From Thermoanaerobaculia bacterium (GTDB lineage Bacteria; Acidobacteriota; Thermoanaerobaculia; UBA5066; DATFVB01): a stretch of DNA of 40,891 nucleotides. The stretch is from assembly GCA_035260525.1 (NCBI GenBank), contig DATFVB010000096.1, positions 1 to 40,891 on the forward strand, given 5' to 3'. This document shows, piece by piece, positions 5,346 to 40,234 of this stretch. The translations under genes were made by a program, and so were the position numbers. The notes under the pieces are model-generated. The model saw only the letters and a list, made by a program, of their open reading frames with translations, was not told the DNA's origin and did no database searches. Position 1 is the first letter of the stretch. Each line of letters begins with the position of its first letter.

Positions 5346-5416
5346 TTCACCCGTCGTCCGGCCGAGGAGCCGTCGAGAGCCCGGCCGGATCGCACATCTT
5401 TTGAAAGGAGCCCATC

Positions 5417-6034
5417 ATGAAAGTCTCGAGACGTCTTGCTTATCCCCTGGCTCTGGCGTTCCTCTGCGTTCTCGCCGTTCCCGTGGCTCGGGCCGACAAC
5501 GCCTGGCGGACCCCGCTCCGGCTCTCCGAGCCGACGGAGATCCCCGGCAAGGTCCTCCAGCCCGGCGCGTACGTGATCAAGGTGGTCGACACGGCGCGCA
5601 TCCGGTCGATCGTGCAGTTCCTGAACCCGGACGAAACCGAGGTCATCGCGACGGTGCTCGCGGTTCCGACCCGCCGGGTCCCGGCGGCCGAGGAGACGGA
5701 GTTCACGTACTTCCAGCGCCAGGAGGGCGCGCCCCAGGCGATGAAGTCGTGGATCTACCCGGGAGAGAATTTCGGCGTCGAGTTCGTCTATCCGAAGGCG
5801 GAAGCGATCACGCTCGCCGAGAAGACCCACGAAACCGTCTACGCGACTCCGGCACCGGAGCCGACCATCGAGAGCGAGGTCGTCGCCGTCACTCCGGAGC
5901 GCAAGGAGATTCCCTACCAGCCTCTCCCGACTCTGCCGAAGACCGGCAGTGATCTTCCGCTGATCGGCCTTCTCGCGGCCGCGTCGCTCGCCGGCGCCGC
6001 CGGGTTGAAGATCCTTGGCAACCGGATCGGCTGA
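5417..6034 (+). CDS. Exported LPXTG-type protein, probable substrate of the adjacent sortase
   Basis: A 205-residue protein with a strong SD (GAAAGGAG) and a Sec signal peptide ending ARA near residue 26. The mature part begins DNAWRTPLRLSEPTEIPG and contains PGAYVIKVVDT, a repeated-strand region and SWIYPGENFGVEFVYPKAE, suggesting one compact beta domain. A short Pro/Glu-rich linker leads to LPKTG at 173-177. After it come a hydrophobic helix of about 20 residues and the short tail GNRIG, which is the layout of a sortase sorting signal, although the tail has only one Arg. The next gene is a sortase, which strongly supports the role. Such signals are typical of Gram-positive walls and are unusual in a diderm. 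The function of the N-terminal domain is not recognised. Confidence 0.9.
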   Translation: MKVSRRLAYPLALAFLCVLAVPVARADNAWRTPLRLSEPTEIPGKVLQPGAYVIKVVDTARIRSIVQFLNPDETEVIATVLAVPTRRVPAAEETEFTYFQRQEGAPQAMKSWIYPGENFGVEFVYPKAEAITLAEKTHETVYATPAPEPTIESEVVAVTPERKEIPYQPLPTLPKTGSDLPLIGLLAAASLAGAAGLKILGNRIG

Positions 6035-6707
6035 TTTCCTGCGTTCGGATCCCGGCCTCCGGGGCGCTCGCCCCGGAGGCCTGCGCGTTCTCGAGCGCGT
6101 CCTCTGGGTCACCGGTTCCCTCGCCCTCGGGTGGTGCGTCTTCGTGATCTCCGCTTCCCGAATCGATCGGTTTCTCGGCGGCCGCCTCCTCGACCGCTCG
6201 CACGCCTCGCGATCGTCCGATCCCGCCGCCGTTCCGAAACCGAACCCCCGTCCCGCGGCCGGCCAGACGATGGAGTCGCGTCCCGCCATCGCGCCGCTCG
6301 CTCCTCTCGTCCGCGGAGCTCTCATCGGCCGTCTCGAGATCGCGACGATCGGCCTGTCGGCCGTCGCCCGCGAGGGAGACGACGCGCGGACGCTGCGGTT
6401 CTCCGTGGGCCACATCCCGGGGACTCCCGTTCCTCCCGAGGAGGGCAACGCCGCGTTCGCCGGTCATCGCGACCGGCAGTTCCGCGGTCTCGGCCGGGTG
6501 CGGCCGAACGACGAGATCCGGATCACCACCGAGTCGGGAGAGTTCGTCTACCGCGTCGAGTGGACGTCGGTCGTCGGTCCCGACGCCTCCTGGGTCCTCG
6601 ATCCGACCCCCGACGCGACGCTCACGCTCGTCACGTGCTATCCCTTCGGCTACGTCGGAAGCGCGCCGGACCGTTTCGTCGTGCGGGCGAAGCTCGTCGC
6701 GAGCTGA
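6015..6707 (+). CDS. Class D-like sortase (transpeptidase)
   Basis: A membrane-anchored cysteine transpeptidase of 230 residues if translation starts at the TTG at 6015, which overlaps the LPXTG gene by 20 bp. No downstream ATG, GTG or TTG retains the N-terminal anchor (about residues 24-47), so coupled translation from this start is likely. The catalytic triad is visible: His151 in AGHRDRQF, Cys208 in TLVTCYPFGY and Arg220 in APDRFVVRA. The TLVTCYPF-Y-G-AP-RF-V signature matches class D sortases as I know them. Between the anchor and the catalytic domain is a Pro/Ser-rich linker. The enzyme should cleave LPKTG between Thr and Gly and transfer the protein to an amine acceptor. What that acceptor would be in a diderm envelope is not known from sequence. 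Confidence 0.92.
   Translation: MATGSADFLRSDPGLRGARPGGLRVLERVLWVTGSLALGWCVFVISASRIDRFLGGRLLDRSHASRSSDPAAVPKPNPRPAAGQTMESRPAIAPLAPLVRGALIGRLEIATIGLSAVAREGDDARTLRFSVGHIPGTPVPPEEGNAAFAGHRDRQFRGLGRVRPNDEIRITTESGEFVYRVEWTSVVGPDASWVLDPTPDATLTLVTCYPFGYVGSAPDRFVVRAKLVAS
6054..6081 (+). promoter_or_regulatory. Perfect 12-bp hairpin at the substrate/sortase junction
   Basis: GGCCTCCGGGGC and GCCCCGGAGGCC flank a four-base loop, GCTC. It begins 20 bp after the LPXTG stop codon and lies inside codons 14-23 of the sortase. No U-tract follows, so it is not a standard intrinsic terminator. An mRNA 3'-stabiliser or attenuator that keeps substrate levels above sortase levels would fit. Confidence 0.6.
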
Positions 6708-23164: not shown

Positions 23165-23193
23165 AACGGCCGCCGCGCGAGGCGGCGGCCGTT
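23165..23193. terminator. Perfect 12-bp hairpin between convergent genes
   Basis: AACGGCCGCCGC and GCGGCGGCCGTT pair around GCGAG. It follows the stop of the minus-strand gene at 23225 and could end that transcript. There is no long U-tract, so it may only stabilise the 3' end. Confidence 0.55.
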
Positions 23194-27626: not shown

Positions 27627-29849
27627 ATGCGTCCACCGGAGAGCGCCGCCCCGCCGATGCCCGCCGAGGCCGTGACCGGGCAGGTCGAGCGGGTGACGTT
27701 CCACAGCGACGAATCGGGGTTTTGCGTCCTGAAGGTCGCCGTGCGCGGCCGGAAAGAGCTCTGCACGGTCGTGGGCACCGCGCCGGCGGTCTCGGTCGGA
27801 GAGTGGCTCAGCGCGACCGGCCAGTGGACGATCGACCCCCGCCACGGCGCGCAGTTCAAGGCCGACGAGATCCGGACGTCGGCCCCGGACAACGCGGAAG
27901 GCATCGAGCGCTACCTCGCCTCCGGCCTCATCAAGGGGATCGGGCCCGCCTTCGCCGCGCGTCTGGTCGAGAAGTTCGGCAAGGACGTCTTCGCCGTGAT
28001 CGCCGAGAAGCCCCGGCGCCTGCGCGAGGTCGAAGGGATCGGACCGGGGCGCCAGCGCGCGATCACGGAGTCCTTCCGCGCGCAGAAGATCGTCCGCGAC
28101 ATCATGGTTTTCCTCCACAGCCACGGGGTCTCGTCGTCGCGCGCTTACCGGATCTTCAAAACCTACGGCGAGGATGCGATCGAGAAGGTGCAGGCGGATC
28201 CGTACCGCCTCGCGCGCGACATTCGCGGAATCGGCTTCAAGAGCGCGGACGCGATCGCGGCCCGGGTCGGTGTGGGCCGGGAGTCGGAGCTCCGGGCGCG
28301 CGCCGGCGTCGAGTTCACGCTCCAGGAGCTCACCAACGAGGGCCACTGCGCATACCCGAGGGCGGATCTCGCGAGGAAGGCCTCCGACCTTCTCGGGATA
28401 CCGGTGGAGACGACCGACGCCGCGATCGCGTTCGGCGCCGCCTCGGAAAGGCTCGCCGAGCACTCCGGCCCGGATGGCGCACCGCTCGTCTATCTGGCGC
28501 CGATCGACCGGGCCGAGCGGGAGCTCGCGGAGGCCCTCGCGAGGCTCTCCCGCGGCCGCCACCCGCTCCCCGCCGTGGACTTCGAGAAGGCGGCCGACTG
28601 GGTCGAGGCGAAAGTCGGCGTGACGCTCTCCCCCACGCAGCGTGCGGCGCTGTCGAGGGCTTTGACGGCAAAGGTGATGGTGATCACGGGCGGTCCGGGC
28701 GTCGGGAAGACGACCCTCGTCAATTCGATCGTGAAGATCTTCCAGGCGAAGAAGCTGACGGCGGTTCTCTGCGCCCCGACCGGGCGAGCCGCCAAGCGCC
28801 TGACGGAGACCTCGGGCGTCGACGCGAAGACGATCCACCGGCTCCTCGAGTTCGACCCGGCGACTCTCGGATTCAAGCGGGACGCGAAACATCCGCTGAA
28901 AGGGGATCTCTTCGTGGTCGACGAGGCGAGCATGCTGGACGTGTCGCTCTGCCACCAGCTCGTGCGCGCGGTGCCGCCCGGGGCGGCGCTCCTTTTCGTC
29001 GGCGACGTGGACCAGCTCCCCTCCGTCGGACCGGGATCGGTGCTTTCCGACGTCATCGACTCCGGGACGATTCCCGTTCTCCGGTTGACGGAGGTGTTCC
29101 GGCAGGCGGCCCGGAGCACGATCGTCACGAACGCGCACCGGATCAACCGGGGGCTCCTCCCCGTCTTCCCGGAAAGGAGCGGGAAGGAGGAAGAGCTCTC
29201 CGACTTCTACTTCGTCGAGGCCGAGGCGCCGGAGGAGGGGGTCGCGCGGGTGCTGCAGCTCGTCACGGAGTCGATTCCGCGCCGGTTCCGAATGAACCCG
29301 CGCGAAGACGTCCAGGTCCTCTGCCCCATGCAGAAGGGAGAGCTGGGCGCGCGGAACCTGAACGTGAAGCTCCAGGAAGCGTTGAACCCCTCGGGCGAAG
29401 AGGTCAGCCGCTTCGGCTGGATCTTCCGCGCGGGCGACCGCGTCATGCAGATGGTGAACGACTACGAGAAGAACGTCTTCAACGGAGACATCGGCCGCAT
29501 CGCGGCGGTCGACGGAAGGGAACAGGAGCTCACGGTGACGTTCGACGGCCGTCCGGTGGCGTACGCCTTCGGCGAGCTCGACGAGCTGTCGCTCGCCTAC
29601 GCCGCCACCGTTCACAAGAGCCAGGGAAGCGAATACCCGGCCGTCGTCGTCCCGATTCATTCGCAGCACTACGTCATGCTGCAGCGAAACCTCCTCTACA
29701 CGGCGGTGACGCGGGCGAGGAAGCTCGTCGTGCTCGTCGGAACGAAGAGCGCGCTCGCGATCGCCGCACGGCGGATCTCCTCCCGGCGCCGGATCACGAC
29801 CCTGAAGGAACGCCTGGCGCGGGCCGTGGCCGTCTCGCCCGTTTCCTGA
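27627..29849 (+). CDS. recD2: RecD2-family ATP-dependent DNA helicase
   Basis: A 740-residue superfamily 1B helicase that unwinds DNA 5'-3' in the cytoplasm. An N-terminal OB-like region (GQVERVTFHSDESGFCVLKVAV) and helix-hairpin-helix repeats (LIKGIGPAFAARLVEKFG, VEGIGPGRQRAI, IRGIGFKSADAIA) precede the motor. Walker A is ITGGPGVGKTT (353-363), motif II is VVDEASMLD, and there are GDVDQLPSVGPG, LTEVFRQAARSTIV, and the C-terminal SLAYAATVHKSQGSEYPAVVVP and YTAVTRARKLVVLVG. The length and the absence of RecB/RecC neighbours fit RecD2, which acts in replication-fork and mismatch repair in other bacteria. There is an ACAATA-like element but no strong SD before the ATG. Confidence 0.95.
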   Translation: MRPPESAAPPMPAEAVTGQVERVTFHSDESGFCVLKVAVRGRKELCTVVGTAPAVSVGEWLSATGQWTIDPRHGAQFKADEIRTSAPDNAEGIERYLASGLIKGIGPAFAARLVEKFGKDVFAVIAEKPRRLREVEGIGPGRQRAITESFRAQKIVRDIMVFLHSHGVSSSRAYRIFKTYGEDAIEKVQADPYRLARDIRGIGFKSADAIAARVGVGRESELRARAGVEFTLQELTNEGHCAYPRADLARKASDLLGIPVETTDAAIAFGAASERLAEHSGPDGAPLVYLAPIDRAERELAEALARLSRGRHPLPAVDFEKAADWVEAKVGVTLSPTQRAALSRALTAKVMVITGGPGVGKTTLVNSIVKIFQAKKLTAVLCAPTGRAAKRLTETSGVDAKTIHRLLEFDPATLGFKRDAKHPLKGDLFVVDEASMLDVSLCHQLVRAVPPGAALLFVGDVDQLPSVGPGSVLSDVIDSGTIPVLRLTEVFRQAARSTIVTNAHRINRGLLPVFPERSGKEEELSDFYFVEAEAPEEGVARVLQLVTESIPRRFRMNPREDVQVLCPMQKGELGARNLNVKLQEALNPSGEEVSRFGWIFRAGDRVMQMVNDYEKNVFNGDIGRIAAVDGREQELTVTFDGRPVAYAFGELDELSLAYAATVHKSQGSEYPAVVVPIHSQHYVMLQRNLLYTAVTRARKLVVLVGTKSALAIAARRISSRRRITTLKERLARAVAVSPVS

Positions 29850-37117: not shown

Positions 37118-40100
37118 TTACGCGATCTGCGCCGAGTTCGGACCTGGCTTCGGACCGATGATCTCCAGCGCGCCGTCGCCCACGGCATCTTCGGAGGATG
37201 CCGCCAGTCGTCGGGACAGCTCCCCCGGATCCGTGCCCGCCGTGGCGGCGAGGCCGGCCCACGTGTTCCTCCCGCCGCTCTTGGCGCGATAGAGCGCCTG
37301 GTCGGCGAGCTCCACGACCTGCGGCCACGCGATGGCGCGCGGAGCCGACGGCACGAACGGCAACGCCGCGAACCCGATCGACACGGTCTTCGCCAGAGCC
37401 TGTCCTCCGTCGAGCAGGAACGGGCGCTCCGAAACCTCGGTGCGCAGCCGCTCCGCGATCTCGGCCGCGTCGGAGCGGGAGCTTCCGCGCGCGACGGCGA
37501 GGAACTCTTCCCCGCCCCAGCGAAGCACGTAGTCCGACGAACGGAAGACCGACTCCAGCCGCTCGCGCATCTGCGCGAGAATCCGGTCGCCGGCCGAATG
37601 GCCGAGTTCGTCGTTCACCTTCTTGAAATGGTCGATGTCGACCAGGAAGAACACGAGGTCGGTCCCCTGACGGAGCGCGAGCGCCACGTCGTCGTCGATG
37701 CGCTGCATGAGGAAGCGGCGGTTTTTCAGCCCCGTCAACGGGTCGGTGATCGTCAGGTCCTCGAGCGCCGCGTTGGCCCTCGCGAGCTCGCTCGTCCGCT
37801 CCGCGACGATCCCCTCCAGGCGTTCGGCGCGCCGGCGCAGGACTCCGGTGCGCGCCCGAACGATCGTGAAGATCGCCACGGCGAGGAGCACGCCGAGGAG
37901 CGATCGGAACCACCACGTCTCGTACCATGCCGGCAAAGCGCGCAGGACGAGCGCGATGGCGCTCGAGCTCCATACGCCGCGCCGGTTCGTGCCGCGCACG
38001 CGCAGCGTGTACGTTCCCGGAGCCAGATTGGTGTACGTCGCGACGCGGTGCGCCGGGTCCGCGTCGATCCATCCGCGGTCGTACCCTTCGAGCCGGTATG
38101 CGTAGCGGAGCCGTTCGGGCGCCGAGTAGTCGAGCGCCGCGAACTCGACCGTGACATCGCGCGCGCCGGCAGGCAGCTCGAGGGGACCGCGAAGACCGCC
38201 CGGGCGTGAAACGGTCCGGCCGTCGACCTTGAGCGCCGTGACCGCGACCGGAGGCGAATAGCTCCACTCCGCGCTCGCTCCCGGCTCGATCACCGTGACG
38301 GCGCGGGTCCCGGCGAAGAAAATCGCCCCGTCGCGCGAAACGGCGACCGCGCCGGTCCAGAACTCGGCTTCCTGGATGCCCTCCGCCGGGCCGAGAATCT
38401 GCGCGCGGAAATCGTCCGAGTCGATGCTCGCAAGCGCGTTGGTCGCGCTCGCCCAGATTCGGCCGTCCGGGCCTGCCGCGAGAGCATCGACGTGCTCGGG
38501 CAGACCTTCGGCGGCGCCGAGGCGCTGAACGTCGGCGCCCCCGCCGGCTCTTTCCGTCAGCACGTTCAGCGGTCCCCCGACGGCGCTCGCCCAGATCCGT
38601 CCGCGGCGGTCCTCGACGATCGAGCTGACGGCCCCCGGCCCCAGGGAGCTCGGGTTCCGCGGATCGTGGACGAATCGCACGACGCGCCCCGTGCCGGGGT
38701 CGATGCGGTCGAGGCCGTTCCGGGTTCCGGCCCAGATCCGGCCCGCGCGATCCGCGTACAACGTGGTGACGAAGTCGTTCGAAAGCGTCTCGGGAGAATC
38801 GCCGCGCCGGTATCGCGCGACGTTGCCGCTTCGCTCGTCCAGCGCGGCCAGTCCGGAGCCGGTCCCGACCCAGAGCGTCCCGCGGCTCTCGACGAGAGAG
38901 AACACGCGGTCGAGATGCTCGTACGGGCATTCGACCTCGCGGCCCGCCGGTACCAGACGGCAGACGCCGTGCATCGTTCCGATCCACAGCGTTCCGTCCG
39001 CGCCGCTCGCGAGCGTCTGCACGCTCGGGTGATTCGGGACCGTGAACGAACGGGATGAGCCCGTTCGCGGGTCGATCCGAACCACCTTGTCCGATCCGCC
39101 GAGCCAGAGACTTCCGTCGGGTGCGGACGCGACGGCGCGCGCACCGATGTCGCCCGCTCCCGACCCTCTGTCGCTCGAGGAGAGCTCGTCGATGCCGCGG
39201 TTGGCGGGATTGTGCACGAGCAGGCCTCCCGGGCCGTTGGCGATCCAGATCAGCCCCGACCGATCCCGGAAGAACTGCCACACGTCGCCGGGGGTGAGAC
39301 CGCCCGGATCCGCCCGGTCGATCGCGATCCGGCGAACGCGCTGCTCCGCGTCGTCGACGATCGAGATGCCGCCGTCGTAGCACGCGACCCAGAAAACGCC
39401 GGGGTTCACCTCGATCACGCCCCATTGCTCGCCGCGGGGCAGCGCGGAAGGGTCCTTGCCGGACGTGTAGGTTCGCTCGACGCGGCGCTCCGCGCTCAGA
39501 ACGAATACCGCGTCGACGGATCCGATCCAGAGACGGCCCGCCGCGTCTTCGTACAGGCTGAAGAACCCGCGCGCGATGAAATCCCCGGCGCCGTCCGGAA
39601 CGAAGCGCCGAAACGTCTTCTCGCGAGGCGGGCGAAAGTACAGCCCGTGGACGGTCGCCGCCCAGACCGTCTGCCCCCGGTCGACGAGAAGCGCCTCCAC
39701 GCGTGGTTGCGCCTCGCCCGCGTCCGCCAGATCGGCGCGCTCGAATCGTCCGGTCGCGGGATCGAAGGAGTCGAGACCGCTGTCGCCCCCCACCCAGAGA
39801 AGGCCCCCCGGCGCCCTTGCCAGGGCAATGATCGTGGCGCTCCTCGGGCCCGTCCGGCCCGTCGGGTCGGCGTGCCAGGCGCGGAACGTTCCGGTGGATT
39901 CATCGAGGCAAAGAAGCCCGCTCGAGAGCGTACCGATCCAGAGCTTCCGGTCCGGATCCGAGAGGAGGGACTCGACTCCGGACGGAGCATTCGGATCCGT
40001 CCGGTAGCTTCGAAAATGGTAGCCGTCGTAGCGGGAGAGGCCCGCCGGCGTGCCGACCCAGATGAAGCCGGCCGCATCCTGGGTCACCGCGTAGACGGCG

Positions 40101-40234
40101 GGATGCGGCAACGATTTCTGGTCGATCCTCGAGAACACCGGATCGGCGACGTTCGCCCACAACGAGAGGGCGTGGACGGTCGAAGCCCAGACGAGCAGCG
40201 AGGAAACGAAGAGAGCGCAGCGGGCTCGGCTCAT
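37118..40234 (-). CDS. Two-component-like receptor diguanylate cyclase (Reg_prop, Y_Y_Y, GGDEF)
   Basis: A 1038-residue membrane receptor. A signal peptide (MSRARCALFVSSLLVWASTVHA) precedes a periplasmic propeller built from Reg_prop repeats such as FIWVGTPAGLSRYDG, KLWIGTLSSGLLCLDE, LLWVGGDSGLDSFDP and GTLWIGTMHGVCRL. A Y_Y_Y domain follows (RLRYAYRLEGYDRGWIDAD, YTLRVRGTNRRGVWS), then one membrane helix (WWFRSLLGVLLAVAIFTIVRA), a short coiled coil, and GGDEF. Catalytic site GGEEF and the inhibitory RxxD (RSSD, five residues earlier) are both present, so it is likely an active, product-inhibited c-di-GMP synthase. Most proteins with this sensor half are histidine-kinase hybrids; the GGDEF output is less common. 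A TAAAAT box lies 11 nt before the start. Confidence 0.94.
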   Translation of the reverse strand: MSRARCALFVSSLLVWASTVHALSLWANVADPVFSRIDQKSLPHPAVYAVTQDAAGFIWVGTPAGLSRYDGYHFRSYRTDPNAPSGVESLLSDPDRKLWIGTLSSGLLCLDESTGTFRAWHADPTGRTGPRSATIIALARAPGGLLWVGGDSGLDSFDPATGRFERADLADAGEAQPRVEALLVDRGQTVWAATVHGLYFRPPREKTFRRFVPDGAGDFIARGFFSLYEDAAGRLWIGSVDAVFVLSAERRVERTYTSGKDPSALPRGEQWGVIEVNPGVFWVACYDGGISIVDDAEQRVRRIAIDRADPGGLTPGDVWQFFRDRSGLIWIANGPGGLLVHNPANRGIDELSSSDRGSGAGDIGARAVASAPDGSLWLGGSDKVVRIDPRTGSSRSFTVPNHPSVQTLASGADGTLWIGTMHGVCRLVPAGREVECPYEHLDRVFSLVESRGTLWVGTGSGLAALDERSGNVARYRRGDSPETLSNDFVTTLYADRAGRIWAGTRNGLDRIDPGTGRVVRFVHDPRNPSSLGPGAVSSIVEDRRGRIWASAVGGPLNVLTERAGGGADVQRLGAAEGLPEHVDALAAGPDGRIWASATNALASIDSDDFRAQILGPAEGIQEAEFWTGAVAVSRDGAIFFAGTRAVTVIEPGASAEWSYSPPVAVTALKVDGRTVSRPGGLRGPLELPAGARDVTVEFAALDYSAPERLRYAYRLEGYDRGWIDADPAHRVATYTNLAPGTYTLRVRGTNRRGVWSSSAIALVLRALPAWYETWWFRSLLGVLLAVAIFTIVRARTGVLRRRAERLEGIVAERTSELARANAALEDLTITDPLTGLKNRRFLMQRIDDDVALALRQGTDLVFFLVDIDHFKKVNDELGHSAGDRILAQMRERLESVFRSSDYVLRWGGEEFLAVARGSSRSDAAEIAERLRTEVSERPFLLDGGQALAKTVSIGFAALPFVPSAPRAIAWPQVVELADQALYRAKSGGRNTWAGLAATAGTDPGELSRRLAASSEDAVGDGALEIIGPKPGPNSAQIA

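Follow-up and report, generated by a model that had tools for sequence, protein, structure and literature searches.

The window, that is, the whole stretch of 40,891 nucleotides of acidobacterial DNA analysed here, carries a two-gene cassette in which a sortase with intact catalytic residues follows a single exported protein bearing an LPKTG sorting signal. Such pairs recur one-to-one across the phylum, and the host of this one is a diderm with a MurE of the meso-diaminopimelate (meso-DAP) type. We think it reasonably probable that the dedicated sortase anchors its client covalently to peptidoglycan, on the periplasmic face of the thin diderm wall.

The client and its sortase

The features of the pair, all on the forward strand, are listed below with the evidence for each.

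5403–5410, forward: strong Shine-Dalgarno-like sequence GAAAGGAG, 5′ of the client gene (sequence)
5417–6034, forward: client gene P0001, encoding the sortase substrate of 205 aa (open reading frame, same-genus orthologue)
5417–5494, forward: client signal peptide, residues 1–26, ending in VARA before DN (sequence; helix 3–19 in the model)
5498–5803, forward: client β-sheet domain, residues 28–129, without Pfam assignment (model, profile searches)
5807–5932, forward: client linker, rich in Pro, Ala, Glu, Thr and Val (sequence; 116 relatives)
5933–5947, forward: LPKTG sorting motif, client residues 173–177 (sequence, genome-wide tail profile)
5954–6031, forward: hydrophobic helix and short basic tail of the sorting signal (sequence; helix 180–204 in the model)
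6015–6707, forward: sortase gene P0002, open from TTG 6015, 230 aa; the start may be CTG 6039
6054–6081, forward: hairpin within the opening codons of the sortase frame; perfect 12-bp stem, 4-nt loop
6093–6155, forward: putative N-terminal membrane anchor of the sortase, about residues 27–47 (hydrophobic stretch)
6465–6467, forward: codon of the catalytic His151 (sortase alignment)
6636–6638, forward: codon of the catalytic Cys208, in TLVTCYPF (sortase alignment)
6672–6674, forward: codon of the catalytic Arg220 (sortase alignment)

A first-pass annotation of this DNA had described an exported protein with LPKTG, a hydrophobic helix and a short tail, and the reading frame at 5417–6034 has all of these behind a signal-peptide-like N-terminus. 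Its C-terminus shows the motif, helix and basic tail of an LPXTG sorting signal; the general sorting-signal profiles are not passed (PF00746, 17.2 against a cut-off of 20; TIGR01167, 14.8 against 15.9). The predicted model of the client has a pLDDT of 91.6 and shows a β domain of approximately 100 residues. This is the one unrecognised exported domain of the annotation, and it is indeed without Pfam assignment. A remote likeness to DUF2911 was seen in 22 of 53 relatives (best E 2.7e-4), and the profile search gave no DUF2911 match to the window client itself. Foldseek with the client model found nothing in the PDB at E ≤ 0.001 (best 0.36); as the query held the signal peptide, linker and tail, this is only weak evidence for a new fold, and we claim none. 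The client shares 79% amino acid identity with its same-genus orthologue at a dN/dS of about 0.33, and purifying selection acts on both genes of the pair in this comparison.

The sortase passes PF04203 (96.3 bits, cut-off 26.6) and TIGR01076 (52.9, cut-off 39.35). H151, C208 and R220, which the annotation had called intact, align with positions that never vary among 168 aligned sortases, counted wherever the row is complete. The single-sequence AlphaFold model of the enzyme was poor (pLDDT 45) and was not used.

The junction of the two genes

The two genes had been said to overlap by 20 bp, which holds only if the sortase starts at TTG 6015. In the same-genus orthologue (G396:C310, locus L281), 4 bp separate the client stop from the sortase ATG, which stands opposite CTG 6039 of the window in the alignment. 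The overlap is thus not established, and from the sequence we regard it as doubtful.

The hairpin reported at the junction, on the other hand, stands. The RNA around it folds with a z of −4.8, and in L281 all 24 stem bases are identical while the loop has changed, at a synonymous divergence between the two sortase genes of about 0.45 per site (pS). Lacking a T-run, the hairpin was not picked up by the terminator scan. The second pair of the genome (on C136) and its orthologue both have a hairpin in the gap between the genes, followed in the orthologue by T-rich sequence. Among 51 adjoining pairs in the phylum, the junction hairpin is longer than every same-locus control stretch in 9, where about one is expected. 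A reasonable reading is that the hairpin probably lowers sortase output relative to the client. At 23165–23193, the window has a further inverted repeat, with 12 bp perfectly paired around a 5-nt loop.

The host genome

LptD is encoded in the window's genome above the family cut-off; among 14 control genomes, the family matched only Escherichia coli and Caulobacter. The host is therefore a diderm with LPS transport, as the annotation had thought probable. The MurE of the genome carries DNPR, the motif that marks meso-DAP-type MurE enzymes. The assignment of the phylum to Acidobacteriota agrees with the named records encoding the client domain, all acidobacterial but for one titled Planctomycetota; some of these records are matched in their DNA by loci from genomes of the window's phylum.

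The genome has four sortases. Searched over the whole genome, the sorting-tail profile found three places with E < 1e-10, the next match being at E = 0.14, and all three tails belong to paralogues of the window client type, the window client included. The paralogue on C136 is 38–42% identical to the window client, has an adjoining sortase and passes TIGR01167 with 19.1. The paralogue on C214 ends in LPKTA and lies 6 kb from the nearest sortase. The fourth sortase (L010, G000:C38, 3836–4507) is divergent, sits on a long branch and has no tail-bearing protein nearby. The proposal of a single-client system is supported with a qualification: one client adjoins the sortase, but three clients and four sortases make a small family rather than one system, and with the third client 6 kb from its nearest sortase, cross-use is possible.

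In the window, neither the Rfam scan nor the tRNA scan gave a match. Elsewhere in it are an ordinary hybrid sensor with regulator propeller, Y_Y_Y and GGDEF domains (37121–40234, reverse strand) and an ordinary RecD2-type helicase (27627–29846, forward strand).

One-to-one pairing across the phylum

We sampled 396 genomes of the same phylum as the window. A sortase is present in 80, the client domain in 44, and both in 39. A sortase thus accompanies the client domain in 39 of 44 genomes, against 41 of the 352 others (Fisher p = 4e-26, a value that overstates independence, the genomes being related), and this is the co-occurrence that the annotation had proposed to look for. The five client-domain genomes without a sortase are weak domain matches, and the three whose loci were read (G176, G229 and G114) have homologues without a tail. 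At the level of the order, two more tail-less groups (G399 and G406/G407) likewise lack a neighbouring sortase in the sequence retrieved. A homologue without LPXTG beside an intact sortase, which the annotation had named as speaking against its view, occurs once among approximately 40 neighbouring pairs in the phylum sample: in L172, a tail-less homologue lies 10 bp from an intact sortase.

Within 3.6 kb of the surveyed sortases, 72 of 104 have an open reading frame with an LPXT[G/A/S] tail. It lies on the sortase's own strand in all 72, and 71 have exactly one such neighbour. The tail detector gave one hit per 776 kb of reversed loci, compared with 78 in the real loci, and none in 33 kb of window sequence outside the pair. 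At the remaining 32 sortases, no client was detected within 3.6 kb; some of these loci end at contig ends, and the detector may have missed clients at some of them. On the sortase tree, the client type changes 28 times, as against 56.6 times in shuffles, and none of 200 shuffles was as low, the pattern to be expected of matched enzymes and clients. The pairing of client and sortase, and with it the claim of a dedicated pair, is well supported by these observations (one neighbouring client at 71 of 104 sortases, and co-occurrence of domain and sortase).

Client architecture

In 116 copies, the client tail reads LPXT[A/G/S]-S followed by a helix and basic residues, with a fuller pattern LPXT[A/G/S]-S-x-x-P-L. 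The last residue of the motif is A in 84, G in 28 and S in 4, and P174 and T176 are invariant in a 53-row client alignment. The linker of these relatives is composed of A, P, E, V and T and spans 42–221 residues, mostly 50–100.

The window's type makes up about half of the clients beside surveyed sortases. The others carry PG_binding_1 (PF01471) or small OB-like domains, consist almost purely of low-complexity arms, or belong to the true class GN targets (TIGR03788). The full-length client profile meets these proteins only through tail and linker, and they were counted as other types. A separate sortase group (L249, L250, L253, L254, L257, L259, L207 and L222) has clients made of a signal peptide, PG_binding_1 and an MPXT[G/A] tail, and the clients of L247, L248, L255 and L168 consist of little more than a signal peptide, a low-complexity stretch of Gln, Asn, Ser and Pro and a sorting tail. 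Class GN sortases with TIGR03788-type targets are also found in the phylum (L203, L206, L232, L235, L239 and L260); five of these targets pass the TIGR03788 cut-off and L232 is slightly below it.

At about 48 loci (L151, L132, L074 and some 45 more), a VWA gene separates the client from the sortase. The intervening protein is TIGR03436 (acidobact_VWFA) in the three tested, and 33 of 34 inspected lack an LPXT[G/A] motif. Since almost all inspected copies are without a sorting tail, they may be a partner rather than a client. The window pair has no such intervening gene. At 16 loci (L080, L082, L092 and 13 others), a malic-enzyme-like gene stands between the client and the VWA–sortase genes.

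Relation to known systems

The class D (SrtD) profiles are the best-scoring ones for the window sortase, far above class C, and in sequence comparison with the PDB it best matches sortases of the class D kind. Both class D cut-offs are missed (NF033746, 111.9 against 165; NF058671, 113 against 140), so class D behaviour is an extrapolation for this enzyme; two relatives lie just above the cut-off of 140 (L165, 142.1; L151, 140.4). SrtC of Bacillus anthracis, a class D sortase, resembles the present case in its best sortase profiles (NF033746, NF058671 and NF058670) and in having few clients, BasI and BasH. SrtC cleaves the T–A bond of LPNTA and links the client to meso-DAP (PMC3297441). With the class D clients of LPXTA type, the window's family shares a motif that is mostly LPXTA-S and the availability of meso-DAP as acceptor; it differs in scores below the curated cut-offs, in the diderm host, in an unrelated client domain and in the window's own motif, LPKTG. 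Of the 116 family tails, 84 end in A, 28 in G and 4 in S.

Other systems offer more distant parallels. Braun lipoprotein and outer-membrane proteins joined by L,D-transpeptidases are covalently linked to peptidoglycan at meso-DAP in diderms (PMC8263019), a link that is putative here. Those enzymes are of another family and chemistry; unlike Braun lipoprotein, the sortase client shows no lipid anchor, and its predicted attachment is by the C-terminal Thr that cleavage exposes. The PEP-CTERM/exosortase system likewise has a C-terminal motif, helix and basic tail that are processed by a Cys enzyme in diderms, but the exosortase spans the membrane several times, is no relative of sortase and has many clients per enzyme. 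The genome paper of Ca. Solibacter usitatus names six sortase genes and says no more about them (PMC3174227). Among open-access papers that mention both sortases and Acidobacteriota, none appeared, by title or by the relevant passages, to describe such pairs.

Proposed mechanism and alternatives

In the mechanism that we favour, the cassette would consist of a membrane-anchored, periplasm-facing sortase and a single dedicated client. The client would be exported by Sec and kept in the inner membrane by its C-terminal helix. Cys208 would then cut LPKTG between T and G and pass the Thr carboxyl to an amine, most likely the side chain of meso-DAP in a peptidoglycan precursor, as for Bacillus class D sortases. 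The client domain would end up on its flexible linker, covalently fixed to the thin wall. Since meso-DAP occurs in diderm walls, no Gram-positive wall is needed, which answers the puzzle of the acceptor in principle; meso-DAP is a plain candidate for this role, and the DNPR-type MurE supports its supply. Cleavage, transpeptidation and the part played by the client domain are proposed at the same, conditional level. Wall anchoring is favoured by the peptidoglycan-binding domain PF01471 on clients of related sortases; the tail-less homologue of L172, the class D scores below cut-off, the possible cross-use among three clients and four sortases and the restriction of the hairpin to some pairs count against our explanation.

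The sortase could instead only hydrolyse the client and release it into the periplasm, which would be processing and not anchoring. The proposed role of diderm processing systems such as PEP-CTERM/exosortase is to release proteins or to relocate them (PMC1569441), and the acceptor is a deduced one. Sortase-fold enzymes with the H/C/R residues are, however, typically transpeptidases, the long linker from domain to motif fits display from a fixed point, and related clients bear the peptidoglycan-binding domains noted above, so that we hold mere release to be unlikely. It is still less probable that the client is polymerised into a pilus-like fibre, with Thr joined to a Lys of the next subunit as in Gram-positive pilins. 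The client has VYPK at residues 124–127 (window 5786–5797), which resembles the core of the pilin motif, and a Lys stands at the position of Lys127 in 109 of the 123 tail-bearing relatives that have a residue there. The remaining 14 keep the tail and have Arg, Gln, Glu, His or Pro, so this Lys is not invariant; known shaft pilins do not look like one small domain on a floppy linker, and the dominance of class D over class C in the sortase scores also speaks against a fibre.

We see very little chance that the pair belongs to the class GN sortase/marine target-protein system (TIGR03784/TIGR03788), the known NCBIfam sortase class for Gram-negatives. The two systems are alike in the adjacent, one-to-one sortase and client of outer-membrane bacteria, true pairs of TIGR03784 and TIGR03788 occur in the same phylum, and VWA genes intervene at the loci described above. 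But the window sortase scores 79.6 on TIGR03784, half the cut-off of 158.25, and class GN sortases form their own well-supported group in the sortase tree. Known members of TIGR03788 are VIT-VWA proteins; the class GN target measures approximately 650 aa, whereas the window client has 205 aa and a small β domain, and profile searches found no VIT or VWA domain in the client. Membership is thus refuted by scores, client domains and tree, and the functional parallel remains. A recent import from Gram-positives or assembly contamination is hardly credible. Sortases are usually Gram-positive and the assembly is in 368 contigs, but its contamination is 0.23%, ordinary genes flank the pair in the 41-kb contig, an orthologous pair under purifying selection is present in a same-genus genome, and 79 of the 80 named relatives retained are acidobacterial, the exception being titled Planctomycetota. 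The same-genus orthologue, the acidobacterial relatives and the flanking genes largely exclude this origin.

Implications

In reviews, anchoring by sortases is described as belonging to monoderm walls, and a treatment from 2020 calls sortases unknown in strictly outer-membrane phyla. Here, an LPS-type diderm phylum has sortases in about a fifth of the sampled genomes, most with one dedicated neighbouring client. The known parallel in diderms is the class GN pairs, and judged by profile scores the window sortase and client pass neither class GN model. The pairs make covalent protein anchoring in a diderm directly testable, offer natural enzyme–substrate pairs, possibly of distinct specificity, that could be useful as ligation tools, and place several protein families, at present labelled hypothetical, in a functional context. 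More speculatively, Acidobacteriota might possess a repertoire of single-client sortases that fix small domains covalently to the thin peptidoglycan, on arms of 42–221 residues (mostly 50–100) that could reach the outer membrane. Such a sortase-made counterpart of Braun's lipoprotein may tether or sense the envelope, sometimes together with a VWA protein.
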